Below are positions 1,981 to 61,747 of a DNA stretch of 64,000 nucleotides, piece after piece. Source of the DNA: Hydrogenovibrio sp. JE_KL2 (GTDB taxonomy: Bacteria > Pseudomonadota > Gammaproteobacteria > Thiomicrospirales > Thiomicrospiraceae); contig NZ_WBJR01000004.1 in assembly GCF_009296185.1 (NCBI RefSeq), forward strand, positions 186,001-250,000, read 5' to 3'. Position 1 is the first letter of the stretch. Each line of letters opens with the position of its first letter. Under the pieces are notes generated by a model. The model saw only the letters and a list, made by a program, of their open reading frames with translations, searched no databases and had not been told where the DNA came from. The position numbers and the translations under genes are program-made.

Positions 1981-1998
1981 CCCAACCTGGCAGATTTT
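1981..1998 (+). repeat. 19-mer family repeat, copy 1 (18 of 19 bases)
   Basis: CCCAACCTGGCAGATTTT, starting 8 bp after the stop of the small membrane ORF. It is one of 14 copies of CCCCAACCTGGYAGATTTT in the window. Confidence 0.9.
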
Positions 1999-2011
1999 CA
2001 CTGCCAAAAAC

Positions 2012-2042
2012 AAAAAAGGCGAATCAACCGATTCGCCCTTTA
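2012..2042. terminator. Bidirectional intrinsic terminator
   Basis: An 8-bp perfect stem GGCGAATC / GATTCGCC with loop AACC at 2018-2037. It is flanked by AAAAAA on the left, which reads as a U-tract on the minus strand after ppnP, and by CTTTA on the right. It separates the convergent small ORF and ppnP. Confidence 0.85.
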
Positions 2043-2071
2043 AACATTTGAAACCTGTCGGCTTACACGGC

Positions 2072-2383
2072 TTACAAATAAGAACAGCAATAATCCGCAA
2101 CTGTCTTCACTTTAATGCCGAATTTCGAGTTTCCAGGCACTTCAAAAGTTTCGCCCGCTGGAATCGCCTTCCACTCAGTTTCACCTGGCAACAGCACTTC
2201 AACATCGCCTGCCAACATTTCCATAATTTCAGGCGCTTCAGTACCGAACTCATAATCACCCGGTAGCAAAATACCCAAGGTCTTCTTCGAACCGTCAGCA
2301 AACAATAACGTGCGACTGGTGACCTTACCATCATAATAGATATTTGCCGCTTTAACGGCCGTGACATTATCAAATTGAGACAT
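2072..2383 (-). CDS. ppnP: Pyrimidine/purine nucleoside phosphorylase PpnP
   Basis: A 103-residue single-cupin protein of the PpnP (YaiE, DUF1255) family. These enzymes split nucleosides with phosphate to give the free base and ribose 1-phosphate, with broad base specificity. Recognisable family features are YYDGKV near the N terminus, [27 protein letters not shown] in the middle, the [13 protein letters not shown] cupin strand and the aromatic C-terminal CCSYL. Length matches the family (about 95 residues in E. coli). AAGGA lies 7 nt before the ATG. It stands alone between convergent and tandem neighbours and probably serves nucleoside salvage. Confidence 0.93.
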
Positions 2384-2451
2384 TGTTTTTCCTTAGTGTC
2401 TTAAAGCACCTGAAAGGTACCCTGTTGAAATTGGAGCGAATTATAACGAAA

Positions 2452-2901
2452 TCAACTTTTACTAGCCATAAAGATTTCTGCCAGAAATAAAAGCAACGAA
2501 ACAATCAGGCAAAACATGGCGAAGACAAACAGAATTGAAATCAATGCCGCCGCATGGAAGGAAAACAGCGTGCTTAAAAACATCACCATAATCACCAACG
2601 CCACCCACAAACCTGTCATGGTGCAAAATAAAATCGATAAATTCACGTTTCGAGAGCGTTTGTGCAAACGGTTTTGCTTGCGTCTGACTGCATCCGAACG
2701 GCGATCAATCGGGCTTTCGGCGCGATGGGCAATTAGAAAGTTTTCCAAACTTTCCACCTTGTCTTTGATGCGGTTCAACCGATTAACCAGAACGTTCAAC
2801 AACCCACTAACCCCCGCCAAAAGAAATACGGGCGCAACCGAGAGTTGAATGAAATGTGAAACGACATTGACAGAATCGCCTGTCATAATTTGATCAATCA
2901 T
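2452..2901 (-). CDS. DUF2721 family membrane protein
   Basis: A 149-residue integral membrane protein. An N-terminal helix (FIQLSVAPVFLLAGVSGLLNVL) is followed by a charged cytoplasmic segment (NRLNRIKDKVESLE...RRSDAVRRKQNRLHKRSRN), then two strongly hydrophobic helices at about 90-145. This arrangement and the LAGVSGLLNVLVNRLNRI segment fit the DUF2721 family, whose function is unknown. It lies 41 bp beyond the gloA stop on the same strand and may be cotranscribed with it. Confidence 0.75.
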   Translation of the reverse strand: MIDQIMTGDSVNVVSHFIQLSVAPVFLLAGVSGLLNVLVNRLNRIKDKVESLENFLIAHRAESPIDRRSDAVRRKQNRLHKRSRNVNLSILFCTMTGLWVALVIMVMFLSTLFSFHAAALISILFVFAMFCLIVSLLLFLAEIFMASKS

Positions 2902-2942
2902 CCTAAACCGTCCTCAACTTAGTGAACCTTAACTGAGTAACC

Positions 2943-3338
2943 TTAACCGCGAACGTGATTTTCGCCAATGAACTCTATCTGATAACCGTCAGGATCTTCA
3001 ATAAAGGCAATAATCGTAGTACCTGCATTCATCGGCCCTGCTTCGCGGATCACCTTTCCGCCTGCCGCTTTTACCGCCTCTGTCGTTTTGTAAACATCCG
3101 GTACTTCTATCGCGATGTGACCATAACCGCTTCCCAAATCGTAAGATTCGACGCCCCAGTTATACGTCAGTTCAAGCACGGTATTGCTGTCTTCATCGCC
3201 ATAACCCAAAAATGCCAAAGTGAACTCTCCAGCAGGGTAATCTTTCTGACGCAACAGCTTCATGCCCAATACATTAGTATAGAAATCAATCGACTTCTGT
3301 AAATCACCCACTCGTAACATTGTATGTAGCAATCGCAT
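2943..3338 (-). CDS. gloA: Lactoylglutathione lyase (glyoxalase I)
   Basis: A 131-residue metalloenzyme that isomerises the methylglyoxal-glutathione hemithioacetal to S-lactoylglutathione in the cytoplasm. The four metal ligands of the E. coli enzyme are all present at the same positions: H5, E56, H74 and E122. Other landmarks are [20 protein letters not shown] at the start and [12 protein letters not shown] at the end. The ATG is preceded by GGAG at good spacing. Lengths around 130-135 are usual for the bacterial Ni/Co-type enzyme. Confidence 0.97.
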
Positions 3339-3408
3339 TGAATTTTCTCCTTACTAAAGGGCGGCTTACGGCATAAACCACCCAATGAAACTTAATTAAA
3401 CCGCTGCC

Positions 3409-4683: not shown

Positions 4684-4810
4684 AGCTATCCTTCTCTTCG
4701 TTAAGTTGAGCCGCACCAGTACAAACCTGGAAAATTCCAACCAGATTTAGTGCGTTGTATTTATTATGTTTTTACCAAAAAACACTTCAAATGAATTTTT
4801 TTCATCTAAG

Positions 4811-4839
4811 TATGTAGAAAATTAATACTTATTTTTCAA
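4811..4839 (-). promoter_or_regulatory. Candidate sigma-70 promoter of metY
   Basis: On the minus strand TTGAAA is followed after exactly 17 nt by TACATA, about 130 nt before the metY start, in an AT-rich 256-bp intergenic stretch. The -35 is good and the -10 partial. No S-box or SAM riboswitch structure was seen in the leader. Confidence 0.35.
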
Positions 4840-4939
4840 TAACATAGATTAAATCAGAACCGTCATAGTAAAGAGATTTAGAGTGACTGTCAAACCTCTT
4901 CTCACCATGAACATACGGAGCTCAAATACCGACCTTCAT

Positions 4940-11085: not shown

Positions 11086-11104
11086 AAAATCTGCCAGGTT
11101 GGGG
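11086..11104 (-). repeat. 19-mer family repeat, copy 2
   Basis: AAAATCTGCCAGGTTGGGG, the exact reverse complement of the consensus. It lies 8 bp after the thioesterase stop and between convergent genes. Confidence 0.9.
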
Positions 11105-13098: not shown

Positions 13099-13117
13099 CC
13101 CCAACCTGGTAGATTTT
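13099..13117 (+). repeat. 19-mer family repeat, copy 3 (T variant)
   Basis: CCCCAACCTGGTAGATTTT, between ovoB and psiE, 70 bp downstream of the ovoB stop in the direction of transcription. Confidence 0.9.
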
Positions 13118-25373: not shown

Positions 25374-25424
25374 AAAATCTGCCAGGTTGGGTTCTCTCCT
25401 ATTTACCCCAACCTGGTAGATTTT
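25374..25424. terminator. Terminator made of two inverted 19-mer copies (copies 4 and 5)
   Basis: AAAATCTGCCAGGTTGGG at 25374-25391 and CCCCAACCTGGTAGATTTT at 25406-25424 pair over about 18 bp (one C/T difference) around a 14-nt spacer, starting 9 bp after the lon stop. The right arm ends in TTTTTAT, as an intrinsic terminator should. The structure is symmetric. Confidence 0.85.
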
Positions 25425-25680
25425 TATCGTCACCCAGTCTTGTTCAAGCTTGTAATCAAGCTCCTAATCAAGCATTAAGCAATTCATTCAAACCGCTTTG
25501 AAAGGTGGTGGAATCCTTAATTTCTTTTCAGTCTTACTCAAGGTTTCGACGCAGTCTGACTGCATATTGACCGTATCAACAATCACTAATTTGGTTGTGC
25601 TAGAGTAATTACTCGACAGGCTTTAGCTTAACATTCAGCGACAGGCCTTTCGCAAATCAAAAACCATTTGGAGGTTAGTT
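25425..25680 (+). promoter_or_regulatory. Upstream region of the SQR-like gene with iterons and a palindrome
   Basis: Three tandem 12-nt units (TTCAAGCTTGTA, ATCAAGCTCCTA, ATCAAGCATTAA) fill 25444-25479. A perfect 12-bp palindrome GAGTAATTACTC lies at 25603-25614, 66 bp before the start codon. TTGACC at 25567-25572 could be a -35, but no convincing -10 pairs with it. These are candidate regulator sites for the sulfide/respiration cluster. Confidence 0.45.
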
Positions 25681-26982
25681 ATGTCTCATACGAATACACC
25701 CCATGTCTTGATTCTAGGTGGCAATTTTGCCGGACTTGGTTCTGCTCAGGCAGTTCGAAAATATGCTGGTAAAGATGTCAATATCACGGTGATAGACCGC
25801 AAAAACTATCTGCTTTATGTTCCCAACATTTCGACTGAAATTTTCGAGTCTGATCATCCTGAACTCGAAAAAAACCTGACGATGGATCTACCCTCGACCC
25901 TTGCCAAAGACAATGTGAATTTTATCCAAGGCGAAGTGACCGGCATAGACGTCAACCGTCAGCGAGTGAAGTTTAACCCCGCCGAACGCCCGGGAGCCGA
26001 ACCACAAACCATCGAATATGATTTTCTGGTCGTTTCGGTCGGTTGCGAACTGGCCTATGAAGATATTGAAGGATTCGCCGAATACGGTGACACGGTTTCG
26101 GACTTTTATCACGCAAAAAAACTATTCAAAAAACTAACCGAAGACTATCATGGCGGCAACATTGTGGTCGGCTCGGCACTGTTCAAACAGGGAGACGGCG
26201 CGATTGGTCTGCAACCTTATCCCGGCGGTTCTATTCCAAGTGCCAAAGCTGCCTGTGAAGGCCCTCCTGTCGAAGTTTCGTTATCCTTGGCCAACTGGCT
26301 TAACCAGCATGGTAAGGGCGGACCGGACGATATCACCATCACCACGCCAGCTGAAATGATTGCAGAAGACGCCGGTGAAGACGTCGTTACCCAACTACTG
26401 GAAGCCGCATCAAGCATGGGATTCAAATATGTCAACAATACCGGTGACATCAAACGATTGACTGAACACACCATTGAGTATGAAAACGGCCAAGTCATTA
26501 ATGCGGAAATCAAAATCCTTTTCCCCAACTGGAAAGCCTATGACTTTTTGAAAAATCTGCCCATTGCCGACAATGAAGGATTTATTGTCACTGACCTCTA
26601 TATGAGAAACCCGACTTATCGAAACGTTTTTGCCGCAGGTGACTGTGCAGCGGTAACGGTTCCGAAACTCGGCGCTATCGGACATCAGGAGTGTGACATC
26701 GTCGGCAGACAAATCGCTAAAGACCTTCACCAATTGTCAGCGGAAAAAGCCGATGTCTCTTTGCAACCTGTGGTTTTCTGTATCGGCGATATGGGGGATG
26801 GAAAAGCTTTCTACATCCATTCCAATTCTTGGTTTGGCGGACCGGAGCAGAAACTGGTGATGGGACATGTGCCGCATTTTCTCAAAATGCAGTACAAACG
26901 TATGTTCATGAACAACGACGGAAAAGTGCCGCCTTGGGGCTTGGATGTTGCGGAAGTATTGGCTGAAAAAATTGCTGTTTAG
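25681..26982 (+). CDS. Sulfide:quinone-oxidoreductase-like FAD flavoprotein
   Basis: A 433-residue two-dinucleotide-binding-domain flavoprotein. The FAD loop is LILGGNFAGLGSAQAVRKY at 10-28, and the second FAD contact is NVFAAGDCAAVTVPK near 316. C122 (VSVGCEL) and C192 (AACEGPPVEVS) sit where SQR and flavocytochrome c proteins carry redox cysteines; C338 and C367 are further candidates for the third. The family oxidises sulfide and passes electrons to quinone at the membrane. The partner here is likely the bd oxidase encoded immediately downstream. GGAGG lies 6-7 nt before the ATG. The SQR subtype is uncertain, and NDH-2-like activity is a weaker alternative. Confidence 0.78.
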   Translation: MSHTNTPHVLILGGNFAGLGSAQAVRKYAGKDVNITVIDRKNYLLYVPNISTEIFESDHPELEKNLTMDLPSTLAKDNVNFIQGEVTGIDVNRQRVKFNPAERPGAEPQTIEYDFLVVSVGCELAYEDIEGFAEYGDTVSDFYHAKKLFKKLTEDYHGGNIVVGSALFKQGDGAIGLQPYPGGSIPSAKAACEGPPVEVSLSLANWLNQHGKGGPDDITITTPAEMIAEDAGEDVVTQLLEAASSMGFKYVNNTGDIKRLTEHTIEYENGQVINAEIKILFPNWKAYDFLKNLPIADNEGFIVTDLYMRNPTYRNVFAAGDCAAVTVPKLGAIGHQECDIVGRQIAKDLHQLSAEKADVSLQPVVFCIGDMGDGKAFYIHSNSWFGGPEQKLVMGHVPHFLKMQYKRMFMNNDGKVPPWGLDVAEVLAEKIAV

Positions 26983-27067
26983 CGGCTTTGTCTGCCAAAA
27001 CTTTTCTGCTAGGCTAATGTGCTAACGCTGTGTAACCTTTAACATCCGAACACTTAGCCGATGCCAT

Positions 27068-27096
27068 TTGCCCCCACTATGTCATAGTAGGGGCAA
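27068..27096. other. Hairpin between the SQR-like gene and cydA
   Basis: TTGCCCCCACTAT, loop GTC, ATAGTAGGGGCAA: a 13-bp stem with one mismatch, ending 37 nt before the cydA start. No T-run follows, so it is more likely an mRNA processing or stability element, or an operator, than a terminator. Confidence 0.65.
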
Positions 27097-27133
27097 GACT
27101 GGAAGGCTTCGTAAAACAAGAGGAGAGCCATAA

Positions 27134-28483
27134 GTGACGATGGAAAGTTTACTTGATCCTACTCTGTTGGCTCGTGCTCAATTCGCTTTTACGATTGCCT
27201 TCCATATCATTTTTCCTGCCCTTTCCATCGGCCTAGGAAGCTATCTGCTCGTCCTAGAAGGACTGGCATTATGGAAAAAGAATCCCGTTTATTTCGCCCT
27301 TTTCGACTATTGGAAACGCATTTTTGCGGTGACCTTCGTACTCGGCACCGTCACAGGACTCACCATGTCGTTTCAGTTCGGTACCAATTGGAGCGTGTTT
27401 GCCGAAAAGACAGGCCCTATCCTTGGCCCGCTAATCGCCTACGAAACCCAAACTGCATTTTTTCTGGAAGCGATTTTTCTTAGCGTTTTATTGTTTGGGC
27501 GAAAACGCGTCAGTCCAAAAATTCATTTATTCGCAACCGCTATGGTTGCGTTGGGTTCGCTGATTTCCGCCTTTTGGATACTCACCACCAACTCTTGGAT
27601 GCAAACCCCCGCAGGATTTAGCATCAATGCCGCAGGGCAATTTGTTCCGGCCGATTGGTGGCAAATCATTTTCAACCCTTCCATGCCTTACCGTTTCGTA
27701 CACATGGTTTTGGCAGCTTTCCTATCCACCGCTTTCTTTGTTGGCGGTGTGGGTGCCTGGCAATTATTGAAAGATGCCAATCACCCCGTAGCACGAAAAA
27801 TGTTTTCCATGTCAATGTGGATGATTCTGTTCACTGCTCCACTGCAAATCATTGCCGGCGACCAGCAAGGGCTTAATACTGAGCAATATCAACCTGCTAA
27901 AATCGCTGCCATAGAAGGTCATTACCAAGCGCAAAAAGGCGCACCTTTAATTCTCTTCGGTCTGCCTGACGACAAAGATCAGACCGTCAAATATGCCGTT
28001 GAAATCCCCAAACTTGGTTCATTAATCCTGACTCATTCTTTAAACGGAAAGGTTGACGGGCTAGATGAATTTCCCGCTGACAAACGACCACCGACTCCTA
28101 TTGTATTCTGGTCATTCAGAATCATGGTCGGGCTAGGATTTTTGATGCTGGGATTGGCACTCTGGGGACTTTGGGCACGCAAAAAACATCATTTCTACGA
28201 CAACAAAAGATTGTTAAAACTCAGTGTTCTGATGGCTCCAACGGGCTTAATGGCGATTTTGGCTGGCTGGGTAACCACTGAAGTCGGCCGCCAACCTTAC
28301 TTGGTGTACGGCCATCTGCTGACCTCAGAATCCGTTTCTAAAACACCTGTGGCTTTTCTCACAACCTCCTTTACTGCCTATGTCATCAGTTACATTGCAA
28401 TCCTACTTTTTGCGGTTTACTTCATGTTCAAACTACTGAAAAAACTTCCTGATACGCAAGAGGTATCTCATGACTATTATTGA
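27134..28483 (+). CDS. cydA: Cytochrome bd-type quinol oxidase subunit I (short Q-loop, CIO-like)
   Basis: A 449-residue haem-bearing subunit that oxidises quinol and reduces oxygen to water. Haem ligands and proton-path residues are recognisable: H24 in IAFHIIFPALSIG, H190 in MPYRFVHMVLAAF, E104 and E112 in YETQTAFFLEAIF, and R329 and M331 in FWSFRIMVGLG. The region between about 241 and 325 is short, with GLNTEQYQPAKIAAIEGHY, as in cyanide-insensitive (Cio/CydA short Q-loop) enzymes. The start is GTG at 27134, supported by GGAG 8 nt upstream; an ATG two codons later is less well spaced. It overlaps cydB by 14 bp. This oxidase type tolerates sulfide, which fits the upstream SQR-like gene. 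Confidence 0.93.
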   Translation: MTMESLLDPTLLARAQFAFTIAFHIIFPALSIGLGSYLLVLEGLALWKKNPVYFALFDYWKRIFAVTFVLGTVTGLTMSFQFGTNWSVFAEKTGPILGPLIAYETQTAFFLEAIFLSVLLFGRKRVSPKIHLFATAMVALGSLISAFWILTTNSWMQTPAGFSINAAGQFVPADWWQIIFNPSMPYRFVHMVLAAFLSTAFFVGGVGAWQLLKDANHPVARKMFSMSMWMILFTAPLQIIAGDQQGLNTEQYQPAKIAAIEGHYQAQKGAPLILFGLPDDKDQTVKYAVEIPKLGSLILTHSLNGKVDGLDEFPADKRPPTPIVFWSFRIMVGLGFLMLGLALWGLWARKKHHFYDNKRLLKLSVLMAPTGLMAILAGWVTTEVGRQPYLVYGHLLTSESVSKTPVAFLTTSFTAYVISYIAILLFAVYFMFKLLKKLPDTQEVSHDYY

Positions 28484-29468
28484 TATCTGGATCGGTATAC
28501 TGGCGTTCTCCATTTTCCTCTATGTCGTACTGGATGGATTTGATTTAGGCGTCGGAATTTTATTTCCAATGACTAAAAATGCCGCCCAACGTGATGAGAT
28601 GATTGCCAGCATCGCCCCTGTTTGGGACGGTAACGAGACCTGGCTAATTTTTACCGGTGTCTGCCTATTTGGGGTGTTTCCGAAAGCCTACGCGATTTTA
28701 TTATCCGCATTATATTTACCCGTTATTGCCATGCTCATCGGACTGGTTTTTCGAGGCGTTGCTTTTGAGTTTCGCCAAGCAGACGGACACTGGAAAACCT
28801 TTTGGGATGCAGGTTTTCATATCGGTTCGGTGGTGGTTGGTTTTATGCAGGGGGTCATCCTGGGTAGCTTGATTCAAGGGTTACCAATAGCTGACGGACA
28901 CTATGCCGGAACTGCTTTTGGCTGGATAACGCCTTTTTCGCTCATGACGGGGTTAGGTGTTGTCACCGGCTATGCCTTGATGGGAGCCGCTTGGCTATGG
29001 ATTAAAACGCATAATGAGATTCACGACATGGCCGAAACCGCAGTCAAAGTCTCTTTGACCTTGACCTTCTTTTCGCTTGGAATCATTAGCCTATGGACAC
29101 CTTTTCTCAACCCCGATTATCTCCACAAATGGTTTGACTCATCGACCATCAGCAACCATTTGATGCTGGGAATTCCTGTGCTGTCGGTTTTATCGGCATT
29201 GCTAATTCTCTATGGTCTGAATAAGTCGCGTACCGCTTTGCCGTTTTTCGGTTCAATCCTATTGTTTGCCTCCGGATATATTGGGGTTCTTTACAATCTC
29301 TACCCGCATATCATTCCACCCAATTTAACTTTTGCCGATGCCGCGTCACCTGAAAGCAGTTTAACGTTTCTGCTACCGGGAACGCTGGTATTACTACCCC
29401 TAGTCTTGGGCTACTTTATTTACAGCCACTGGGTGTTCAGAGGTAAAGTCACTACCCTGCATGACTAA
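28470..29468 (+). CDS. cydB: Cytochrome bd-type quinol oxidase subunit II
   Basis: A 332-residue membrane subunit with eight predicted helices. It starts with the typical LYVVLDGFDLGVGILFP and contains SIAPVWDGNETWLIFTG and ALYLPVIAMLIGLVFRGVAFEFR. It overlaps cydA by 14 bp, which implies translational coupling. Its stop codon is followed with no gap by a copy of the 19-mer repeat. No cydX-like small ORF was seen downstream. Confidence 0.96.
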   Translation: MTIIDIWIGILAFSIFLYVVLDGFDLGVGILFPMTKNAAQRDEMIASIAPVWDGNETWLIFTGVCLFGVFPKAYAILLSALYLPVIAMLIGLVFRGVAFEFRQADGHWKTFWDAGFHIGSVVVGFMQGVILGSLIQGLPIADGHYAGTAFGWITPFSLMTGLGVVTGYALMGAAWLWIKTHNEIHDMAETAVKVSLTLTFFSLGIISLWTPFLNPDYLHKWFDSSTISNHLMLGIPVLSVLSALLILYGLNKSRTALPFFGSILLFASGYIGVLYNLYPHIIPPNLTFADAASPESSLTFLLPGTLVLLPLVLGYFIYSHWVFRGKVTTLHD

Positions 29469-29486
29469 CCCAACCTGGTAGATTTT
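29469..29486 (+). repeat. 19-mer family repeat, copy 6 (T variant)
   Basis: CCCAACCTGGTAGATTTT begins at the base after the cydB stop codon. Confidence 0.9.
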
Positions 29487-35937: not shown

Positions 35938-35956
35938 CCCCAACCTGGCAGATTTT
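35938..35956 (+). repeat. 19-mer family repeat, copy 7
   Basis: CCCCAACCTGGCAGATTTT lies between convergent genes. Its last two bases are part of the TAA stop codon of the minus-strand membrane-protein gene (stop at 35955-35957). Confidence 0.9.
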
Positions 35957-39877: not shown

Positions 39878-39896
39878 AAAAACTGCCAGGTTGGGG
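39878..39896 (-). repeat. 19-mer family repeat, copy 8 (one mismatch)
   Basis: AAAAACTGCCAGGTTGGGG differs at one position from the reverse complement of the consensus. It lies 37 bp upstream of the dnaJ start. Confidence 0.8.
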
Positions 39897-43071: not shown

Positions 43072-43159
43072 ACAAAAACAGAATTTTTTTTCAAAAAAAA
43101 CATTTTAAGGACACTTATTTAAGGCCGTTATGGATCACTCGGGCGGGTTTTTATAAGCC

Positions 43160-43168
43160 TGATATAAT
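43160..43168 (+). promoter_or_regulatory. Extended -10 promoter of the CnoX-like gene
   Basis: TGATATAAT is a perfect extended -10 element (TGnTATAAT), 28 bp before the start codon, with no recognisable -35. AAAAGGAAC provides the ribosome site. Confidence 0.6.
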
Positions 43169-43195
43169 ACGAGTACTGATGAAAAGGAACTTAAT

Positions 43196-44068
43196 ATGGC
43201 AAAACCAGACGTTTACAACTTTGAAATTTCCGACCAGGACTTTGACGATATCGTGCTCACCAACTCTCATAAACTGCCAGTATTCGTCCTGTTTTTAAGT
43301 CCCGCCATCGGTAGCTGTATTTCGCTGGAAAATATCCTCATCGACTATGCACACAAATTCGCTGGTCAATTTATCTTGGCAAGACTGGACATCGACATGT
43401 ATGCTGATGCACGCGAAAAATTCAACATTCAAAACGTCCCGACACTCATGGTATTCAAAGACGGTGAAGCCGTTCATGAAGAAGTCGGTGTCATGACCTA
43501 TGAGAGCCTTGCTGCGCTATTCAAACAATTCGGCATCTATAATCTTGCTGACGAACTGCGCGAGCAGGCAAAAGCCAAGCATAGCGAAGGCAACACACCG
43601 GAAGCGGTGCAACTGTTATCTCAAGCCGCCAAAGAAGATGCCGGCAATGTCGATATTGCCATGGACATGTGCCAGATTTTCCTGGACATCAACCTGCTTG
43701 CTGAAGCCGCGGAATTATTCACTCGCCTACCGGATAACATCAAAGAAGAGAAACGCCCCCGCTTTTTGATCGGTCAAATCACCTTCAAAAAACTGGCGTT
43801 GGACACTGCTGGCAAAGCCGCTTTATCTGAAAAACTGGCGTCACAACCAGAAGACGAAGACTCTTTGTTTGATTTAGCGGTTTGCTATATTGCTGAACAA
43901 GACTATGACACCGGAATGGCGCATCTTTTCAAACTGCTACAAAATAATCCTAACGCCAAAGGTGGCGGTGCTAAAGAACTGGCACTGGCAACCATCAATA
44001 TGCTTGAAAACATGACACCGGAAACCGCAAATGAGTTCCGCCGCAGGCTCAATAGCGTTCTTTCCTAA
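43196..44068 (+). CDS. cnoX: Thioredoxin-like co-chaperone, CnoX/YbbN type
   Basis: A 290-residue protein. The N-terminal thioredoxin fold (about 1-110) has FVLFLSPAIGSCISLENIL where thioredoxins have WCGPC, so the site reads IGSC and only the second cysteine remains, and NVPTLMVFKDGEAV carries the conserved cis-Pro. The C-terminal ~170 residues form TPR-like helical repeats (AEAAELFTRLPD, AEQDYDTGMAHLFKLL). This is the CnoX/YbbN arrangement, a holdase that passes clients to DnaK/J and GroEL. Its position back-to-back with grpE supports that role. It probably has no disulfide-reductase activity. Confidence 0.88.
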   Translation: MAKPDVYNFEISDQDFDDIVLTNSHKLPVFVLFLSPAIGSCISLENILIDYAHKFAGQFILARLDIDMYADAREKFNIQNVPTLMVFKDGEAVHEEVGVMTYESLAALFKQFGIYNLADELREQAKAKHSEGNTPEAVQLLSQAAKEDAGNVDIAMDMCQIFLDINLLAEAAELFTRLPDNIKEEKRPRFLIGQITFKKLALDTAGKAALSEKLASQPEDEDSLFDLAVCYIAEQDYDTGMAHLFKLLQNNPNAKGGGAKELALATINMLENMTPETANEFRRRLNSVLS

Positions 44069-44074
44069 AACGTC

Positions 44075-44093
44075 AAAATCTGCCAGGTTGGGG
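44075..44093 (-). repeat. 19-mer family repeat, copy 9
   Basis: AAAATCTGCCAGGTTGGGG, starting 6 bp after the cnoX stop. Confidence 0.9.
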
Positions 44094-44182
44094 TACCACT
44101 TATCCTTCTATAGAAAATATGAAATTGTGGGCGTTTAACAGGTCTTCTAGAATGTCCATTTTCGTTAATACAAGGAAATGGA

Positions 44183-45382
44183 ATGCCCTACGAAGTGAGC
44201 TCTAACCGGGTAGATATTGTCTACGACTTCAATGACGGCAAACCTCAAGCCACCCTCAAAGTTAACGACAAAACGCTCCTGAATAATCATGCTCGACTGA
44301 CTGTCATCAGTCGCTTTTACGAAACTCAAGAGACATTTGTTGGACACCCTAAAAAATCGAAAGAATGGTGCAATGTCGAACTCTTTTCTGCAAACATTGA
44401 GCTGATAAATGAAATGGTTGTAGACCTGAATTTTTCGAGCTTCATTCCTTATGACTATGACCATAATCTGTCATCGCCTGGATTTTTTGCCGGAAATTTT
44501 ATCTGTAAGACAGAATTCAAACTTGAAGTGGGCTCTCCTTGGCAACCGGACATCATAAAGCTCTACCCGATTCCTAGTGTATTGACGACAAAACCTCACC
44601 CGTCTCACCTTACGCCTCAAGATAAATTTGATTTCTGGCTTAATGTACGAAAATTGCAGCCAACCGCCAAAAGGCTCGCCTATTTATGGGCAGGTTTAGC
44701 CATCACACTTGCAACGATGCTTCAGATTATTGGTTATCATGATCAGTTCTGCGCACCGGATCACACTTGGTTATTTCACCGGGGAGCGCGCAGCTTTTTA
44801 TTCCCCGTGGTTGCTGGTATCGGAGGTTCTTACCTTTTTTACCACTTCTTATATAAACTGGCCAAGACTTATCTAAGAGATTACCTCACCCAGATAAAAA
44901 TCCATTGGCCCAAACGGGTTAAGAAAGATTCTACTCTTTATCTTAAAAACCTGTTGCAAGGAAAGCTGGTTTCAGACATTGACCACCTTCAAATCCGAGT
45001 GATTGCATCCAATATGCAACACGCCGTCATTGAAGGCGGCAGAAGCCGAAAACGAGTGTCATACCCCTGCAACGAAGTGATTCTGTTCGACAAAATTTTT
45101 CACGATATTAAAGCAGGAGACCAACTGTCGGACATTATCGACATTGATGACAAACTACACATGAAAGATGTTTTCACAACCTGCTTTCCAAATGCCGTTT
45201 ATGGACGTTTCTATAAAATGGCGCTGATCTGGCAAATACAAATTATTCACGATGATCTAGTAGACCACTTGTTCAATGGGCCGAGTGATCTGTTTGAAAT
45301 AACCGATTTCGAAGTGCTTCAACCATTGCGCTTTGGTAAAACGCTGTCCCGTCGAACGGGTAGCAACAAGCTGTCCGCTTAA
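44183..45382 (+). CDS. Unknown membrane-anchored protein, 399 aa
   Basis: I do not recognise this protein. The N-terminal ~165 residues look like a soluble beta-rich domain (VDIVYDFNDGKPQATLKVNDKTLL, ARLTVISRFYE). Two hydrophobic helices lie at about 172-190 (LAYLWAGLAITLATMLQIIGY) and 208-228 (LFPVVAGIGGSYLFYHFLY). A C-terminal cytoplasmic domain of about 160 residues follows, rich in charged residues. No enzyme motif is seen. A 4-bp tail-to-tail overlap with hrcA (TTAA) closes the gene, and no terminator separates them. Codon use resembles its neighbours. Confidence 0.7.
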   Translation: MPYEVSSNRVDIVYDFNDGKPQATLKVNDKTLLNNHARLTVISRFYETQETFVGHPKKSKEWCNVELFSANIELINEMVVDLNFSSFIPYDYDHNLSSPGFFAGNFICKTEFKLEVGSPWQPDIIKLYPIPSVLTTKPHPSHLTPQDKFDFWLNVRKLQPTAKRLAYLWAGLAITLATMLQIIGYHDQFCAPDHTWLFHRGARSFLFPVVAGIGGSYLFYHFLYKLAKTYLRDYLTQIKIHWPKRVKKDSTLYLKNLLQGKLVSDIDHLQIRVIASNMQHAVIEGGRSRKRVSYPCNEVILFDKIFHDIKAGDQLSDIIDIDDKLHMKDVFTTCFPNAVYGRFYKMALIWQIQIIHDDLVDHLFNGPSDLFEITDFEVLQPLRFGKTLSRRTGSNKLSA

Positions 45383-47528: not shown

Positions 47529-49193
47529 ATGCTGCAAACACTCACCATTCAAAACCTTGCTCTGATTGAAAAACTGTCATTGGATTTCCATTCCGGTTTT
47601 ACAACCCTTACCGGGGAAACCGGCGCCGGGAAATCCATTTTATTGGACGCTCTCGGTTTGGCATTGGGTGAGCGAGCAGACAGCGGCTTGGTGCGTCATG
47701 GCACCCCCAGAGCGGACATCACTGCCGACTTTGAGATACAAGACCTTCCTCAAGTACAAGCATGGCTGGCGGACAATGAATTCGACGACGAAGGCAACTG
47801 CCTATTAAGAAGAACCGTTACGGCTGAAGGGCGTTCAAAAGCCTATATCAATGGCTTGCCGGCGTCGATTTCTCAATTAAAAGGCTTGAGTGATTTACTG
47901 ATTGATATTCACGGCCAGCACGAACATCAATCCCTGCTTCACAGCAACAAACAACTTGAACTGTTGGATGCCTACGCTAACCATCCAAAACTATTGGAAG
48001 ACACGCAACAATCCTATCAACAATGGCAAAGCCTTAAAAAGCGTTATAAAACCCTGCATGAGCAACAAAGTGACAGACAAAGTCAGCTAGACCTGCTCAA
48101 CTTCCAGCTTAAAGAATTCGACAAAGTCATGCCCGTGGCAGACGAATATGACGCTTTGGCTGAAGAACAAAACGGCTTGGCGCACGCCAGTGAAATCAAG
48201 CAAGCCGTGTACAACGCCTACGAACTCATTGAGGGCGAAGAAGGCGTCACCGAAAAACTCAACAGTGCCATCCACGCATTGGACTCGGTTGCCGAATACA
48301 GCCCCACCTTGGAAAAGATTGCCGAGCAACTCAACTCCTTGTTGATAGACGCCCAAGAAGCTGCCAATGACATTCAAGCGCAAGACCATCATATTGAGCT
48401 TGATCCGGCACGTTTACAAGCAGTGGATGAACGCCTGTCAGAACTGTTTGGCTTGGCAAAACGCTATACGCTTGAGCCACAAGAATTAGTTGATAAGCAC
48501 CAACAAATCCGCGATGCGCTTGCAGAGTTGGAAGACTCGGATGCGTCGTTGGAAAGCCTGAAGGCAGAGATAGAACAAGCAGAGATCGCCTACCAAAAAG
48601 CGGCAGATGCCCTTACCAAATCTCGCAGCACTTCCGGTAAGCAACTTGGCGATACCGTGACCGATGCCATGAGAACCCTCGGCATGGAAAACGGACAATT
48701 CAAAATCGAAATTACCCCTAGCGACAAACCCAGTGCCACAGGGTCTGATACCGTTAGTTTCCTCGTCACCGCCAACAAAGGACAACCTTTACAGCCGTTG
48801 GCAAAAGTGGCTTCTGGTGGTGAACTCTCACGTATCAGCTTGGCGATACAAGTTGCCAGTGCAGAAGTCGCTAGCCTACCGACATTGATTTTCGATGAAG
48901 TGGATGTGGGTATCGGCGGCGGTATTGCCGAAGTGGTTGGGCAAAAGATGCAACAACTGGGCAAGCACAGACAAATCCTATCCATCACTCACTTGGCGCA
49001 AGTGGCGGCTTACGGAAACCAACACTTGAACATTGCCAAAGCCACTGTCGATGAGCAAACGATTACGCAAGTGACTGAGTTGGACGAAGCTGAACGCGTT
49101 GAAGAACTCGCTAGAATGCTGGGCGGTATGACGATTACCGAAAATACGCGTAATCATGCTAAGGAAATGTTAGCGATTGCGCAGAGAAGTTAA
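47529..49193 (+). CDS. recN: DNA repair protein RecN
   Basis: A 554-residue SMC-like ATPase acting in double-strand-break repair. The N-terminal head has LTGETGAGKSILLDALGLALGERAD (Walker A). Two coiled-coil regions follow (about 155-230 and 320-365). The C-terminal head has the signature VASGGELSRISLAIQVAS, Walker B TLIFDEVDVGIGGGIAEVVG and the His of ILSITHLAQVAAYG. A hairpin terminator lies 35 bp after the stop. Confidence 0.98.
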   Translation: MLQTLTIQNLALIEKLSLDFHSGFTTLTGETGAGKSILLDALGLALGERADSGLVRHGTPRADITADFEIQDLPQVQAWLADNEFDDEGNCLLRRTVTAEGRSKAYINGLPASISQLKGLSDLLIDIHGQHEHQSLLHSNKQLELLDAYANHPKLLEDTQQSYQQWQSLKKRYKTLHEQQSDRQSQLDLLNFQLKEFDKVMPVADEYDALAEEQNGLAHASEIKQAVYNAYELIEGEEGVTEKLNSAIHALDSVAEYSPTLEKIAEQLNSLLIDAQEAANDIQAQDHHIELDPARLQAVDERLSELFGLAKRYTLEPQELVDKHQQIRDALAELEDSDASLESLKAEIEQAEIAYQKAADALTKSRSTSGKQLGDTVTDAMRTLGMENGQFKIEITPSDKPSATGSDTVSFLVTANKGQPLQPLAKVASGGELSRISLAIQVASAEVASLPTLIFDEVDVGIGGGIAEVVGQKMQQLGKHRQILSITHLAQVAAYGNQHLNIAKATVDEQTITQVTELDEAERVEELARMLGGMTITENTRNHAKEMLAIAQRS

Positions 49194-49228
49194 AATTAAC
49201 CCAGAAGAGGCTTGAAAAGCTATTTGTT

Positions 49229-49252
49229 GGTTATACGGTATAACCTATTTTT
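49229..49252 (+). terminator. Terminator of recN
   Basis: GGTTAT, loop ACGGT, ATAACC, then TATTTTT. It overlaps the stop codon of the convergent DUF2806 gene. Confidence 0.7.
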
Positions 49253-50120
49253 GAATTAGTGGAGTTGACAAAATTAAACCAGAGCCAAAAAGGCTTTTAA
49301 TAATATAGTGGTAAAAGTCTTCGTTGTATTCTGCACCACTAATGACAGCAAGTTCACTACCAGCCTGTGTCAATAATGCTTGTCCTATTTGAATTTTATT
49401 TCCTTCATCATTTTGAAATTCCATTGTAATAGGTCTTCCAAAATAAAAAATTGTTGCATATTTATGAAACCCTTGACGAATATAACCGGTAGTAGGGTTA
49501 AAAGAAATCAAACCTAAACTATCCAGATGAGTTAAAGAAGCAAAGTTAATTTTGTCTTTAAATACCTCATCTTCAGAATTCAATATATACGGAGTTAAAT
49601 CTCCCATCATTGAACAAAACTGGCAAAAATTAGTAAACAGTTCGGCATCTTGTTTGTCTAATGATGCAACAATATTTACAGTTCTTTTAGATACAGAACC
49701 AGGTTGGTTTGCTTCATCTGCAAGAAGGTTCGCCCAAATCGTCTGCATTTGCTTATCAGAAACGTTTTCACACTGATCGAAAAAGTGAGCTACCCAATCT
49801 TCATCCAACTCTTCAGTTTTAGCATTTTCTTTGATTAACTTTGCTGATTCTAAAGTAATAGACTCTATATTATCTTGCTTTCTAGATTGCTGATGTAAAA
49901 GCCTACCCATTGCTCTTTGTTCAAATTCAGAAAGCTCGATGCTTGAAATCAAATCCGTTCTAGCTGCATCTGCATTTGCCTTAGCCATTCTTTTAGTATG
50001 AAGTGGTTGATATACAAGCCCTACAGCACTAGAAACCTTTTCAATAAAAACTGTTACAGGCTTTGCTAAATCTCCATCTATATTGATGTTTATCAATCCA
50101 TTTTTACCATCGTCAGCCAT
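49245..50120 (-). CDS. DUF2806-family protein
   Basis: A 291-residue soluble protein. It starts MADDGKNGLININIDGDLAKPVTVFIEKVSSAVGLVYQP and contains a helical middle with WVAHFFDQCENVSDKQMQTIWANLLADEANQPGSVSKRTVNIVASLDKQDAELF, which is typical of DUF2806. Family function is unknown, but members recur in accessory regions. The gene is clearly more AT-rich than its neighbours and is followed on its upstream side by a long non-coding repeat element, suggesting recent acquisition. The start at 50120 is the first ATG; a TTG 15 codons earlier is open but less likely. Confidence 0.8.
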   Translation of the reverse strand: MADDGKNGLININIDGDLAKPVTVFIEKVSSAVGLVYQPLHTKRMAKANADAARTDLISSIELSEFEQRAMGRLLHQQSRKQDNIESITLESAKLIKENAKTEELDEDWVAHFFDQCENVSDKQMQTIWANLLADEANQPGSVSKRTVNIVASLDKQDAELFTNFCQFCSMMGDLTPYILNSEDEVFKDKINFASLTHLDSLGLISFNPTTGYIRQGFHKYATIFYFGRPITMEFQNDEGNKIQIGQALLTQAGSELAVISGAEYNEDFYHYIIKSLFGSGLILSTPLIQK

Positions 50121-50236
50121 CGAATAAAAACCTCGTTGAAAAATTGAGGATTCAAGAAAGCTCAATCAAAAATCCTTATATGACTTGATTTTATGAAACG
50201 AAAAACAATAAATCAATTTGTATTCTACAGACTTAT

Positions 50237-50255
50237 AAAATCTGCCAGGTTGGGG
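50237..50255 (-). repeat. 19-mer family repeat, copy 10
   Basis: AAAATCTGCCAGGTTGGGG, upstream of the DUF2806 gene and at one edge of the palindrome-rich element. Confidence 0.9.
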
Positions 50256-50269
50256 TATTTGAATTGTTT

Positions 50270-50785
50270 ACTACCGTTTCGTCCTGAGCGCTTCTGATTT
50301 CACTATTTCTATGTAGATATTCTTCATGCGCTCACCCTACTTTTTTAAACAAAAAAGTAGGCAAAAAGTTTTGCCCTGCGCAAACGCTCTGTGTTGCTAG
50401 GCTACTCGCTGAAAATGATGAACTCGTTCACTTCGTTCTCTCAAACAGCATCATTTCCTTACGCTCGCTACGCCAAGCAACAAAACGAGCTTTTTACGAT
50501 GGGCGGATCAGTGCGTGAACCTGACAGGTTGTGCAAGTTTCCGCGAGTTTTTTTAAACACCCTTTGAAAATTCACCGCCCTACTTCTTAACGAAGTGAAC
50601 GCGTTAAAAATGGCGCTGTTTGAGCGAAGCGAGTTCGCCATTTTGCGTGAACGAGTTTAGAAGTATCGGGGAATTTTCAGGGTTGCCTTTTTGGGTTACT
50701 TTTTTGGCAACGCAAAAAAGTAACAAGTCGCCCAAAGAAGAAAAATACAGAAAAACAAGACTCTATCTTAGGGCGGCTTAATTTA
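50270..50785. repeat. Palindrome-rich dispersed-repeat element with two 11-bp T/A hairpins
   Basis: Near the left edge CCTACTTTTTT, loop AAAC, AAAAAAGTAGG (50337-50362) forms a perfect 11-bp stem. Near the right edge GTTACTTTTTT, 8-nt loop, AAAAAAGTAAC (50695-50724) forms another. Between them are short self-complementary modules such as GAGCGAAGCGAGTTC and GAACTCGTTCACTTCGTTC. This layout resembles the long degenerate intergenic repeats seen in several gammaproteobacteria, as far as I can recall. No transposase is present. Confidence 0.65.
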
Positions 50786-50794
50786 TCTCCCCTC

Positions 50795-50812
50795 CCAGCC
50801 TGGCAGATTTTT
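50795..50812 (+). repeat. 19-mer family repeat, copy 11 (G variant)
   Basis: CCCAGCCTGGCAGATTTT, 11 bp downstream of the stop of the dihaem cytochrome gene. Confidence 0.8.
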
Positions 50813-54492: not shown

Positions 54493-54543
54493 AAAATCTA
54501 CCAGGTTGGGGTAAACACACTCACCCCCAACCTGGCAGATTTT
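54493..54543. terminator. Terminator made of inverted 19-mer copies 12 and 13
   Basis: AAAATCTACCAGGTTGGGG at 54493-54511 and CCCCAACCTGGCAGATTTT at 54525-54543 pair over 19 bp with one A/C difference around 13 nt. It begins 2 bp after the SDR stop on the minus strand and reads into AAATCT/TTTT-type ends in both directions. Confidence 0.8.
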
Positions 54544-58505: not shown

Positions 58506-58518
58506 TTTATCAAGATAC

Positions 58519-58654: not shown

Positions 58655-60568
58655 ATGAGCCTTAACCGACGTGAGTTTCTTCACATAATGTCCATGGCTG
58701 CGGCAGCAGGAATGCTACCGACATCCGCCATGGCAATGTCTAAAAATAGAGCCGATTCGTCTTCGGCTACGCTGAATGCTGAAATGTATCAAGTGCCGAT
58801 GAAAGGCAATGTACGTATTCTGCATTTGACCGATACCCATGCGCAGTTGAACCCGATCTATTTTAGAGAACCGAACGTTAACCTAGGCGTCGGCCCCGCT
58901 TACAACAAACTACCTCATATCGTGGGTCACAAGTTGTTGAAAGAGTTGAACATTGAACCGAACACCCCTCTGGCACATGCCTTTACTTTCCTGAACTTTC
59001 AGGATGCCTCTGAGCAATACGGTAAGGTCGGCGGGTTTGCCCACATCAAAACCCTATTGGATCAACTGCGCGATCAAGCAGGTGGTCACCAAAACACTTT
59101 GACAATGGATGGTGGAGACCTGTGGCATGGTTCGGCAACGGCACTTTGGACACGCGGACAAGATATGGTGGATGCTTCCAACCTGCTGGGCGTAGATATC
59201 ATGACCGGACACTGGGAGTTCACCTATCACGAAGAGGAAGTGCTGAGTAATATCAAACGCTTCAAGGGTGAGTTTCTGGCGCAGAACATCCGCGTGAAAG
59301 AAGATTCCCTGTTTGGCGATGCTTATCGCAACATGACGGAAAAGCATGGTGGCATCGGTCTTTATGACGAAGATAACGCCCTGCCGTTCAAGCCTTACAG
59401 CATTAAAGAAATCAACGGTGAGCGCATCGCGATTATCGGTCAAGCATTCCCGAGAACGGCCAATGCCAACCCGAGAGCAAACTTCCCTGATTGGTCTTTC
59501 GGTCTACGTGAAGAATCTCTACAGAAAAACATTGATCATATTCGCCAGAACGAGAAAGTCGCGGCGATTGTGATGATTTCCCACAACGGGATGGATGTCG
59601 ATATCAAAATGGCCTCACGTGTCAGCGGTATCGATGCGATTTTCGGTGGGCATACCCATGACGGTATTCCAAAAACCATCAATATCAAAACCCCTGAAGG
59701 CGGTGTGTGCTATGTCACCAATGCGGGTTCAAACGGTAAATTCGTAGGCTGTATGGATTTGGACATCCAAAACGGCAAATTGAAAGGGGTCAACTACACC
59801 CTATTGCCAGTGTTCTCAAATCTACTTGCTGCCGACAAGGAAACCGATAGCTTTATCAAGCAGTTGCGACAAACGCAATACAGCCAATCCATTATCGAAT
59901 CCCGTAATCCGAAATATGCTCACAACCCGGATCGTCTAGGGAAAACTTATGAGCAGATTCTACAAGAAGAGCTTTCTGTGGCACATGATCCGTTATACCG
60001 TCGCGGAAACTTTATCGGCTCCTGGGATCAGGTTATCGTCAATGCCCTGCGCGAAGAGCACGACACGCAAATTGCGATGTCTGCCGGTGTCAGATGGGGC
60101 TCTTCTGTGTTGGGCGGACAGAGCATCACCATGGAGCGCGTGATGGACGTGACTTCCATGACCTATGGCGAGAGCTATAAGTCGGAACTGACGGGTGCAC
60201 AAATCAAAGATATTCTCGAAGGGGTTTGCGAAAACATCTTCCAGAAAGATCCATACCTACAATCCGGCGGCGACATGGTTCGTGTCGGCGGGTTGGATTA
60301 TACCTGTGAGCCTAATGGAACTCTGGGATCGCGCATCAGCAATATGCAGCTGGATAACGGCACACCGATTGAGGCCAGCAAAAAATATACAGTTTCAGGT
60401 TGGGGGCAAGTCGAAACCGTCGGTGAAGGTCGCCCGGTTTGGGATGTGGTTGCCGACCATCTGAGACACCAAAAATCCGGCGTTACTTTGAACAAGGTGA
60501 ACCATCCTGTGTTGAAGGGCGTCAAAACGAATCCGGGGATCGAAAGCTACCAGGGAGGATTGTTTTAA
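58655..60568 (+). CDS. soxB: Thiosulfohydrolase SoxB
   Basis: A 637-residue periplasmic di-manganese enzyme that hydrolyses the sulfate group from SoxYZ-bound sulfur during thiosulfate oxidation. The N terminus SLNRREFLHIMSMAAAAGMLPTSAMA is a twin-arginine signal. Metal-site segments of the 5'-nucleotidase-like fold are HLTDTHAQ (D60, H62), MDGGDLWHGS, MISHNGMD and FGGHTHDG. TGHWEFTY near 184-191 is the SoxB hallmark. The other sox genes are not in this window, so soxB stands apart from them. GGAG precedes the ATG by about 11 nt. The strong terminator at 60630 ends the unit. Confidence 0.97.
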   Translation: MSLNRREFLHIMSMAAAAGMLPTSAMAMSKNRADSSSATLNAEMYQVPMKGNVRILHLTDTHAQLNPIYFREPNVNLGVGPAYNKLPHIVGHKLLKELNIEPNTPLAHAFTFLNFQDASEQYGKVGGFAHIKTLLDQLRDQAGGHQNTLTMDGGDLWHGSATALWTRGQDMVDASNLLGVDIMTGHWEFTYHEEEVLSNIKRFKGEFLAQNIRVKEDSLFGDAYRNMTEKHGGIGLYDEDNALPFKPYSIKEINGERIAIIGQAFPRTANANPRANFPDWSFGLREESLQKNIDHIRQNEKVAAIVMISHNGMDVDIKMASRVSGIDAIFGGHTHDGIPKTINIKTPEGGVCYVTNAGSNGKFVGCMDLDIQNGKLKGVNYTLLPVFSNLLAADKETDSFIKQLRQTQYSQSIIESRNPKYAHNPDRLGKTYEQILQEELSVAHDPLYRRGNFIGSWDQVIVNALREEHDTQIAMSAGVRWGSSVLGGQSITMERVMDVTSMTYGESYKSELTGAQIKDILEGVCENIFQKDPYLQSGGDMVRVGGLDYTCEPNGTLGSRISNMQLDNGTPIEASKKYTVSGWGQVETVGEGRPVWDVVADHLRHQKSGVTLNKVNHPVLKGVKTNPGIESYQGGLF

Positions 60569-60629
60569 TCTTAGCCTAGATTCCCGACCTTATTTTCGTC
60601 TTCTGCAATGAGTTGTCTGTCGAAGGTTT

Positions 60630-60668
60630 GCCCTGCCTAAATTGCACATGTTAGGCGGGGCTTTTTTT
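60630..60668 (+). terminator. Strong terminator of soxB
   Basis: GCCCTGCCTAA, 10-nt loop, TTAGGCGGGGC: an 11-bp stem with one G-U pair, then TTTTTTT. The T-run overlaps the 3' end of the convergent DTW gene. Confidence 0.9.
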
Positions 60669-61284
60669 ATTTGAGCCCCTCAATTCTTAGAGCCTTTTCC
60701 ATTTCAATCCAAGCCTCATGCTGCGCCACCAATGCATCCATTACATTTTGCAAACGATGATACTGACTGCTTTGCTCCAGTTCACTCAACAATGCCATCA
60801 CCGCCTCTAAAGTCGACAGGCTTTGTGCATTCTTTTGCTTGCGAATACGATATTCCGACGGCTGTTGCGGTTGAAGCATAATCCTTGGCAACGCCGCCAG
60901 TTCAGGATTGAGATAGAGCATTTTTTTCGTCTTCTTCCAAGTACCATCTAAAATCAGCACCCGGCAATTTTCCAGCGGAAATTGCGTTTGAACCTCTTCA
61001 GTAGAATAAGTCATCACGGACTCTTCCTCTGAAGCCGGATACAGTAAGAAGGTCTGTTTATGTTGAATGAGGTGGCTTAACTCATCTGAAGAAAACTGCT
61101 CCCCCACCAGAAAATGACTTTGGCTTAAACTGGCATGCGTCAGCCATGCCGTGCCCTTAACCTGCTTTTGCTCCAACGGGTGCTGCAGAAAAACCAACTC
61201 TACTTTGTTCTCCAGTTCAGGCAATGCCGAACACAAACAGAGGTTTTCCAAACGGTGGCATTTTGTACAATAGACTCTCGCCAT
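60667..61284 (-). CDS. DTW-domain protein, probable tRNA-uridine aminocarboxypropyltransferase
   Basis: A 205-residue protein of the DTW family (TapT/YfiP group) that adds a 3-amino-3-carboxypropyl group from SAM to a tRNA uridine. An N-terminal zinc-like motif YCTKCHRLENLCLCSALP is followed by LVFLQHPLEQKQVKGTAWL, and the naming motif appears as LILDGTWKKTKKMLYLNPEL with PRIMLQPQQPSEYRIRKQ after it. The ATG at 61284 has AGG 9 nt upstream; a GTG six codons earlier would overlap the divergent GNAT start region. Confidence 0.9.
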   Translation of the reverse strand: MARVYCTKCHRLENLCLCSALPELENKVELVFLQHPLEQKQVKGTAWLTHASLSQSHFLVGEQFSSDELSHLIQHKQTFLLYPASEEESVMTYSTEEVQTQFPLENCRVLILDGTWKKTKKMLYLNPELAALPRIMLQPQQPSEYRIRKQKNAQSLSTLEAVMALLSELEQSSQYHRLQNVMDALVAQHEAWIEMEKALRIEGLK

Positions 61285-61306
61285 AAATGAAGACCTAAGC
61301 ACTCCT

Positions 61307-61747
61307 GTGAATCAGATAACATCCGACAATATTGTGTGTCAGCAAGCCGAGCAGAACGACTTTTTGCTGGGAAATCGTTTTCTCAAAACTCACGGCCAAG
61401 CTACCGCAGGCAGAGCAGACAAATTATTCACCGTGAAAATCAATCAAAATTTGGTGGGCGCCGCTTGGCTAAGACTCATTGAAAACGATTACTGGTTACG
61501 CAGCCTGTTTGTACTGCCAGAGTATCGCAACCAAAAGCTTGCATCTAAACTGCTCGACTTTTTTCATACCAGCGTTCAACAACAATCGAATGCAAAAATC
61601 ACCTGCCTAGCCAAAGCCGAACTAACCGAGTTTTACCTCAAGAACGGTTACACAGCCATAGCATTTGAAAGCCTCTCGAATACGTGGCAAAAGCAATTCT
61701 CACCCTATTTACAGCAACACCCAACCTGGCAGATTTTCATTCGATAA
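61307..61747 (+). CDS. GNAT-family N-acetyltransferase
   Basis: A 146-residue GNAT. The acetyl-CoA loop is in LRSLFVLPEYRNQKLASKLLDFFH (Q/RxxG/A-like RNQKLA), preceded by GAAWLRLIENDYWLR and followed by FYLKNGYTAIA. The substrate is unknown. The likely start is GTG 61307, only 22 bp from the divergent DTW gene. The last codons (P139-T-W-Q-I-F144) are encoded by a copy of the 19-mer intergenic repeat, so the original C terminus may have been altered by it. Confidence 0.82.
   Translation: MNQITSDNIVCQQAEQNDFLLGNRFLKTHGQATAGRADKLFTVKINQNLVGAAWLRLIENDYWLRSLFVLPEYRNQKLASKLLDFFHTSVQQQSNAKITCLAKAELTEFYLKNGYTAIAFESLSNTWQKQFSPYLQQHPTWQIFIR
61720..61737 (+). repeat. 19-mer family repeat, copy 14, inside a coding region
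   Basis: CCCAACCTGGCAGATTTT forms codons 139-144 of the GNAT gene, which then ends after two more codons. It lies between convergent genes, like most other copies. Confidence 0.9.

Follow-up and report, generated by a model that had tools for sequence, protein, structure and literature searches.

Copies of the word in the window

The stretch analyzed here, hereafter the window, comprises 64,000 nucleotides of Hydrogenovibrio sp. JE_KL2 (contig NZ_WBJR01000004.1, positions 186,001 to 250,000) and carries dispersed copies of one short word, the 19-mer CCCCAACCTGGYAGATTTT. A search allowing up to three mismatches identified 14 copies, eight of them exact, five with one mismatch, and one with two; eight lie on the plus strand and six on the minus strand. 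The number of copies and their occurrence in both orientations agree with a first-pass annotation of this DNA, whose coordinates were correct to 1-2 bases; for four copies the start of the full 19-mer was refined to 1980, 29468, 50793, and 61719. Chance expectation for the window was 0.06 copies, and none of 100 shuffled sequences reached 14.

Exact single copies lie at 11086-11104, 44075-44093, and 50237-50255 on the minus strand and at 13099-13117 and 35938-35956 on the plus strand. One mismatch is present in each of the plus-strand copies at 1980-1998 (between open reading frames [ORFs] and outside the region compared with relatives below) and 61719-61737, and in the minus-strand copy at 39878-39896, where an A-to-T change gives the variant CAGTTTTT. 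The plus-strand copy at 50793-50811 has two mismatches (CAG form). Another plus-strand copy with one mismatch, at 29468-29486, begins in the stop codon of a cydB-like gene and forms the right border of a gene cassette described below.

The remaining copies form two inverted pairs. In the first (25374-25424), the left arm at 25374-25392 (minus strand) has one mismatch and the right arm at 25406-25424 (plus strand) is exact; in the second (54493-54543), both arms, at 54493-54511 (minus strand) and 54525-54543 (plus strand), are exact. Folded on both strands, the pairs are predicted to form stems of 17-19 base pairs, with one internal mismatch in two of the four folds and energies of -25.8 to -34.4 kcal/mol; for each fold, none of 200 shuffles was as stable. 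The two long hairpins that had been annotated here thus exist as predicted structures, and inverted pairs with terminator-like hairpins are a feature of known uptake sequences. The T run of the predicted hairpins is supplied by the word itself. Where two copies stand head to head, the predicted hairpin is long and carries its own T run, so that such pairs may double as terminators. Most copies are single, not paired. Close inverted pairs recur in the genome containing the window (G000) and in two relatives, G010 and G003; a search of public genomes for the inverted-pair pattern, with the own and near genomes left out, gave no matches.

Abundance and placement in the genome

The copies extend genome-wide, beyond the window. 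In G000 (2,438,885 bases in 15 contigs), the exact 17-mer CCAACCTGGYAGATTTT, which was used for genome counts, occurs 327 times on both strands (176 + 151), matching the several hundred copies per genome projected in the annotation, and its reversed control does not occur (0 + 0). In 499 kb of G000, the 19-mer had 46, 27, 6, 2, 6, and 25 copies at zero to five mismatches, respectively. The reversed 19-mer had none up to three mismatches and then 3 and 11, and an arbitrary control word had 1 and 20 matches at four and five mismatches. With many copies at zero to three mismatches and none of the reversed word, the window word is therefore sharply delimited. In the 81 copies that have three mismatches or fewer, positions 2 to 19 hold one letter in at least 93% of copies, except for one C/T position, although the mismatch limit itself favors apparent conservation; no conserved flanks were found beyond these positions. 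The window word thus has a basic property of uptake sequences, that of a short word over-represented throughout the genome on both strands.

Placement relative to genes was less uniform than annotated. The statement that nearly all copies are, at most, a few bases away from a stop codon was too strong, since the distance from the centre of the 12 exact window 17-mers to a stop codon is at most 20 bases in only six cases, at most 82 in three more, and 578-710 in the other three. In 424 kb of G000, 47 of 69 copies with up to two mismatches are intergenic, compared with 10% of the DNA (p about 1e-30), and 22 are located in ORFs. Among the 47 intergenic copies, 24 follow a stop codon by no more than 40 bases (23% expected), 20 lie in convergent gaps (17% expected), and three lie in divergent gaps (27.5% expected). 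These figures are approximate, because genes were called as crude ORFs of at least 90 amino acids and paired copies are non-independent.

Such features are shared with repetitive extragenic palindromic (REP) elements, which are short, repeated, and often intergenic. A REP-type or other small transposase-spread repeat, or simply a favored terminator sequence, would account for a short word that is mostly intergenic in G000, often follows gene ends, and sometimes forms inverted pairs. We consider this explanation very improbable. Nearly a third of the copies (22 of 69) are in ORFs, one of them in frame within comEC, and conserved flanks beyond the word are absent. A terminator, moreover, needs no single word, and most copies stand alone. 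The positions of the copies in related genomes bear on the same question.

Fixed positions and concerted letter changes in related genomes

A 20-kb piece of the window was mapped to syntenic regions in G010, G003, G008, and partly G004. Thirteen window copies lie in the compared region, and eight of these (11086, 13099, 25374, 25406, 35938, 39878, 54525, and 61719) are matched in both G010 and G003 by a copy with identical placement and orientation. A diagnostic position separates the genomes at all eight shared places: G000 and G010 have A there, and G003 has G. Larger samples gave A:G counts at this position of 65:1 in G000, 22:0 in G010, and 1:20 in G003. The A-to-T variant at 39878 is common to the three genomes, as is the inverted pair that begins at 25374. 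In G008, a word of a related type, CAGGCCTGG (see below), maps to about 39908, beside dnaK and in the same gap as copy 39878, this position, 83 bases outside the alignment, being approximate.

The other five copies in the compared region are less widely shared. The copy at 50793 has a counterpart in G010 only, which has the regular CAA form at this place. No counterpart was listed in G010 for the copies at 29468, 44075, 50237, and 54493: the first is the cassette border, the second lies in a segment that differs between species, the third lies in a segment unaligned with G010 or G003, and the fourth, the left arm of an inverted pair, was found in neither G010 nor G003. G003 also has word copies of its own in the compared regions.

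The sole A copy of the G003 sample is located 360 bases before the ComEC domain match. In G000, comEC (L195:5438-8059) contains an in-frame word in which an A-to-G change would replace Thr with Ala, so that coding constraint may explain the lone A copy of G003. In G010 and G003, words lie about as far from the ComEC domain as in G000.

Fixed places with concerted letter changes are not expected of mobile repeats but are expected of biased gene replacement. The eight copies at the same places in three species, with letters that differ together, therefore set the words apart from REP elements and argue against the REP alternative that the first-pass annotation had raised.

A cassette bounded by the word

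A cassette of about 4 kb on the plus strand (25425-29467) encodes both cytochrome bd oxidase subunits (cydA-like gene, 27134-28483; cydB-like gene, 28470-29468) plus a Pyr_redox_2 protein (25681-26982). In G000, the word stands at each cassette border in direct orientation, with the exact copy at 25406 on the left and the copy at 29468 on the right. The cassette is not at this place in G010 and G003, a result for this site only, the rest of those genomes being unsearched, and the empty site in both holds a single word. The alignment with G010 runs along the left side as far as the word and resumes with the word on the right side, with the seam inside the word. Exchange or loss that used the word as homology would leave such a pattern, seen here in one case.

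Other segments, at window positions 43099-45378 and 49189-50560, likewise vary among G000, G010, and G003 and adjoin word copies; they include an ORF of 399 amino acids with no Pfam match and a DUF2806/Abi_alpha-like gene.

Dialects across Thiomicrospiraceae

Among 55 genomes including G000, the exact 17-mer was found 269 times in G010, four times in G003, once in G029, and in none of the other 51. Word counting in pieces of 39-80 kb indicated that it is absent from most relatives because these use other dialect words. The window species and G010 share the dialect CAACCTGGYAGATTTT, and the dialect of G003 is CAGCCTGGYAGATTTT, for which word counting gives ACCCCAGCCTGGYAGATTTT. Words centered on CAGGCCTGG were identified in G001, G002, G004, G005, G006, G008, and G009, which belong to the window's genus, and in G013 and G015 of other genera. 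The dialect of G031 is ACCGGCCGGTAA; that of G029, ACCCGGCCTGTTGAG, rests on thinner evidence (seven sites in 40 kb), with five more sites in each of two Thiomicrorhabdus cannonii loci. Within one genus, the cores run through the series GGCC, AGCC, and AACC. Species dialects around a conserved core, a feature of neisserial DNA uptake sequences (DUS), are present here with a core of their own, not the neisserial word. Among the matches listed in an open-access literature search, with subscription papers outside its scope, there was no report of such words in Thiomicrospiraceae.

We extended the counts to 62 family genomes. CAGGCCTGG reached 1,927 strand-counts (959 + 968) in the richest genome, with reversed controls at 0-10 per strand, and it was near chance in G000, G003, and G010 (1, 3, and 7); a full palindrome CCAGGCCTGG counts on both strands. 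Genomes with at least 60 counts, a limit chosen after seeing the counts, or with a known alternative word were classed as word-rich (37 of 62), the other 25 as word-poor. Among 185 genomes of the class, two of them Thiomicrospiraceae, only the family member G015 stood out for CCAGGCCTGG, with 263 sites; the next-highest count was 39, in a 4.8-Mb genome. Used as query, the window's SoxB protein yielded 55 named loci, the closer of which are titled Thiomicrorhabdus, Hydrogenovibrio, Thiomicrospira, Sulfurivirga, and unclassified Thiotrichales or Piscirickettsiaceae. At least four CAGGCCTGG were present in 10 of the 55, all titled Thiomicrorhabdus, Hydrogenovibrio, Thiomicrospira, or Piscirickettsiaceae. 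No dominant word was found in 25-40 kb samples of G012, G016, G018, G024, G057, G060, G061, G062, G071, and G079; samples of G007, G011, G014, and G017 were below 10 kb and uninformative on words. Word-poor genomes outside the sampled set may hold further dialects.

The flanks of the core also vary. In G008, AAAA to the left and TTTT to the right, most letters at 70% or more, give a clear dyad; these flanks are weaker in G006 and G009 and reversed in G004 and G005 (TTTT left, AAAA right). Since the flank count orients a palindromic core arbitrarily, mixtures may account for the weaker dyads. The window word is like one half of the G008 form (CCTGG-YAGA-TTTT). These word comparisons place the window word, as one dialect, in a family of words that in relatives is centered on CAGGCCTGG.

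The dyad flanks, clearest in G008, would suit a dimeric protein, and concerted change at fixed places could follow a change in that protein. The words could then be bound by an abundant protein of the chromosome (a nucleoid or segregation protein or a global regulator), with a specificity that has drifted from species to species. This seems to us quite unlikely. Segregation or regulator sites are usually far fewer per genome than these words, which reach hundreds to nearly two thousand strand-counts, many inside genes. Many relatives have few or no words, and in G000 the copies avoid divergent gaps, which are the sites of promoters (3 of 47 vs. 27.5% expected).

The palindromic core suggests a further alternative, a highly iterated palindrome (HIP) kept by DNA methylation or mismatch-repair bias and not by uptake. 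The very frequent palindrome HIP1 of cyanobacteria is described in PMC4390886. The common core CCAGGCCTGG is likewise palindromic and very frequent, and it contains GGCC and two CCWGG sites. In nine of ten sampled species using neither the window's nor the G003 dialect, moreover, ORFs contain the majority of copies, as with 19 of 23 words in G009 and 21 of 22 in G015 (intergenic, 4 of 23 and 1 of 22); the exception is G008, with 9 of 12 words intergenic. Several results speak against this alternative, which we regard as unlikely. DNA methyltransferases of the 5-methylcytosine (m5C) class (PF00145), the only class covered by the comparison, were found in 12 of 37 word-rich vs. 12 of 25 word-poor genomes, which is no positive link, and in none of the nine genomes of the word-rich genus g6. 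The window dialect is mostly intergenic and, unlike HIP1, asymmetric, with hairpin pairs that follow gene ends. REP elements and HIP-type words thus fit worse than an uptake sequence.

Other repeats were observed in the sampled pieces. GTTTCACGTGAA has eight counts in 40 kb of G031 (L072-L073) and resembles parS sites. G002 (L005 and L018-L021) has a repeat with GTGTTCTAGAAC and AAAGGCTGTTAAGA, with about 14 counts in 39 kb, and G016 (L084-L085) has a ATGCATCAAGTG / ATCAAGTGTAAC repeat with eight counts within 25 kb, possibly an array. Plasmids gave no meaningful word match. Eleven viral contigs had one match each, about chance level by a rough estimate, and were not used. Three of these (L205, L206, and L208) have a G+C content of 0.40-0.41 and a C before the word, in CCAACC; their words start with AC/AAC/TAC, as in host copies, and they may be proviruses of the host group.

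Competence and pilus genes

In our view, the window word is probably this Hydrogenovibrio species' own dialect of an uptake-sequence-like signal present in much of Thiomicrospiraceae. Judged from sequence, the words behave like uptake sequences. Among the ideas in the first-pass annotation, that of an uptake sequence is the best supported, by the hundreds of copies, their occurrence on both strands, the hairpin pairs, and the dialects; preferential uptake would be the decisive property.

A profile search found ComEC (PF03772) in 56 of 62 genomes, including G000, where ComEC/Rec2 scored 339.5 bits against a cut-off of 190.05. G000 has a mannose-sensitive hemagglutinin (MSHA)-like pilus locus with an MshL-like secretin (247.8 bits, just below the cut-off of 250.2), an MshE-related cyclic di-GMP domain, and a PilC/GspF-like protein. 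It also has a Tad-like locus (by eye) and one prepilin gene cluster, of which three genes were identified by profile and a fourth by eye. For two of the G000 prepilins, relatives were found both in word-rich genomes (G003, G004, G008, G010, G015, and G022) and in word-less G018. These pilin families are common to word-rich and word-less genomes, so no receptor is singled out.

The distribution of ComEC favors an uptake signal, as the gene is lacking in 1 of 37 word-rich genomes but in 5 of the 25 that are word-poor (Fisher p 0.035); this is one test, with a cut chosen post hoc, drafts included, and kinship uncorrected.

Several observations weigh against an uptake signal. Among the word-poor genomes, 20 of 25 have ComEC. 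ComP_DUS (PF16732) scored over its cut-off in none of the 62 genomes, the one weak match being in word-less G018, and GspH/FimT was found in only three, all word-poor. PilQ was over its cut-off in none of the 62, so no classical PilQ is confirmed; lesser secretin matches, of mixed secretin types, were present in 57, and the word-rich draft G077 has no secretin match. The four prepilin-like proteins of G000 are slightly acidic (net charge -3 to -6), unlike ComP and FimT, for which an electropositive stripe is described (PMC12616744), and minor-pilin families also occur in word-less G018. The CCAGGCCTGG-centered words are palindromic at the core, as is HIP1. Finally, the matches listed in the open-access literature search, limited as above, included no report of natural transformation for Thiomicrospiraceae.

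The four prepilin-like genes of G000 (C8:194563-198000) form an isolated cluster, L153:14563-18000, flanked by a porin-like and a miaB-like gene as judged by eye, and G010 and G003 have similar clusters. A compact five-gene prepilin cluster of other species was considered as a type IV pilus and set aside, as its neighbors, judged by eye, probably point to type II secretion; it was not seen in G000, G010, or G003.

Comparison with known uptake sequences

Judged by their core and by the profile searches, the words are not neisserial DUS, since their core is another one and a ComP was not found, and they are not the uptake signal sequences (USS) of Pasteurellaceae either. Neisserial DUS are described as having dialects, a CTG core that is conserved, word-less relatives, and terminator-associated inverted pairs (PMC3630211). 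The Thiomicrospiraceae words are likewise abundant, with dialects around a conserved core, some word-less relatives, and inverted pairs. In contrast, the word here is 18 bp and nearly invariant vs. 10-12 bp in DUS, many relatives have a palindromic core, no genome passed the ComP_DUS cut-off, and the pilus loci in the examined parts of G000 are MSHA-like and Tad-like. Neisserial DUS of the GCCGTCTGAA type was not among the top words of the samples, in which no genome-wide search aimed at DUS was included.

The USS core AAGTGCGGT differs from the Thiomicrospiraceae core. Pasteurellaceae USS have a T-rich flank beside the core, a feature in common with the words here, and a second USS core is ACAAGCGGT. 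AAGTGCGGT was also not among the top words of the samples, again with no genome-wide search aimed at USS. In H. influenzae, about 1,300 USS copies are reported, and opposed copies form terminator stems (PMC5217627, PMC13020248); the words here are likewise frequent, and opposed copies are predicted to form terminator-like stems. PpdA/ComN, predicted as the Pasteurellaceae USS receptor (PMC12616744), has no confirmed counterpart in Thiomicrospiraceae. A recent terminator survey that looked for uptake words names only Neisseriaceae and Pasteurellaceae (PMC13020248).

Proposed mechanism and implications

If the words are uptake signals, a DNA receptor at the cell surface would prefer DNA with the local word, the likeliest candidate being a minor pilin from the MSHA-like type IV pilus. 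ComEC would import the strand, and recombination would then replace the resident copy. Such biased uptake would accumulate the word genome-wide and keep it almost invariant, and a shift in receptor preference would rewrite the copies into species dialects, with the direction of the dialect changes still conjectural. Intergenic head-to-head pairs would double as terminators in both directions, should the predicted hairpins terminate transcription in vivo.

A more far-reaching proposal, to which we give about an even chance, is that chemolithoautotrophic sulfur bacteria have a third, independently evolved uptake-sequence system. This system would combine an MSHA-type pilus, a palindromic CCAGGCCTGG origin, genome-wide dialect replacement at least twice in one genus, and words that also serve as terminators and as seams of gene-cassette exchange. 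Uptake sequences with dialects are already known in Neisseriaceae and Pasteurellaceae, and Thiomicrospiraceae would be the third family. If true, uptake words arose again outside host-associated bacteria, in a family of free-living autotrophs, and the GGCC/AGCC/AACC series within one genus would allow the receptor that changed with the word to be sought. The question of why bacteria tag their own DNA would thereby become testable in a new setting.

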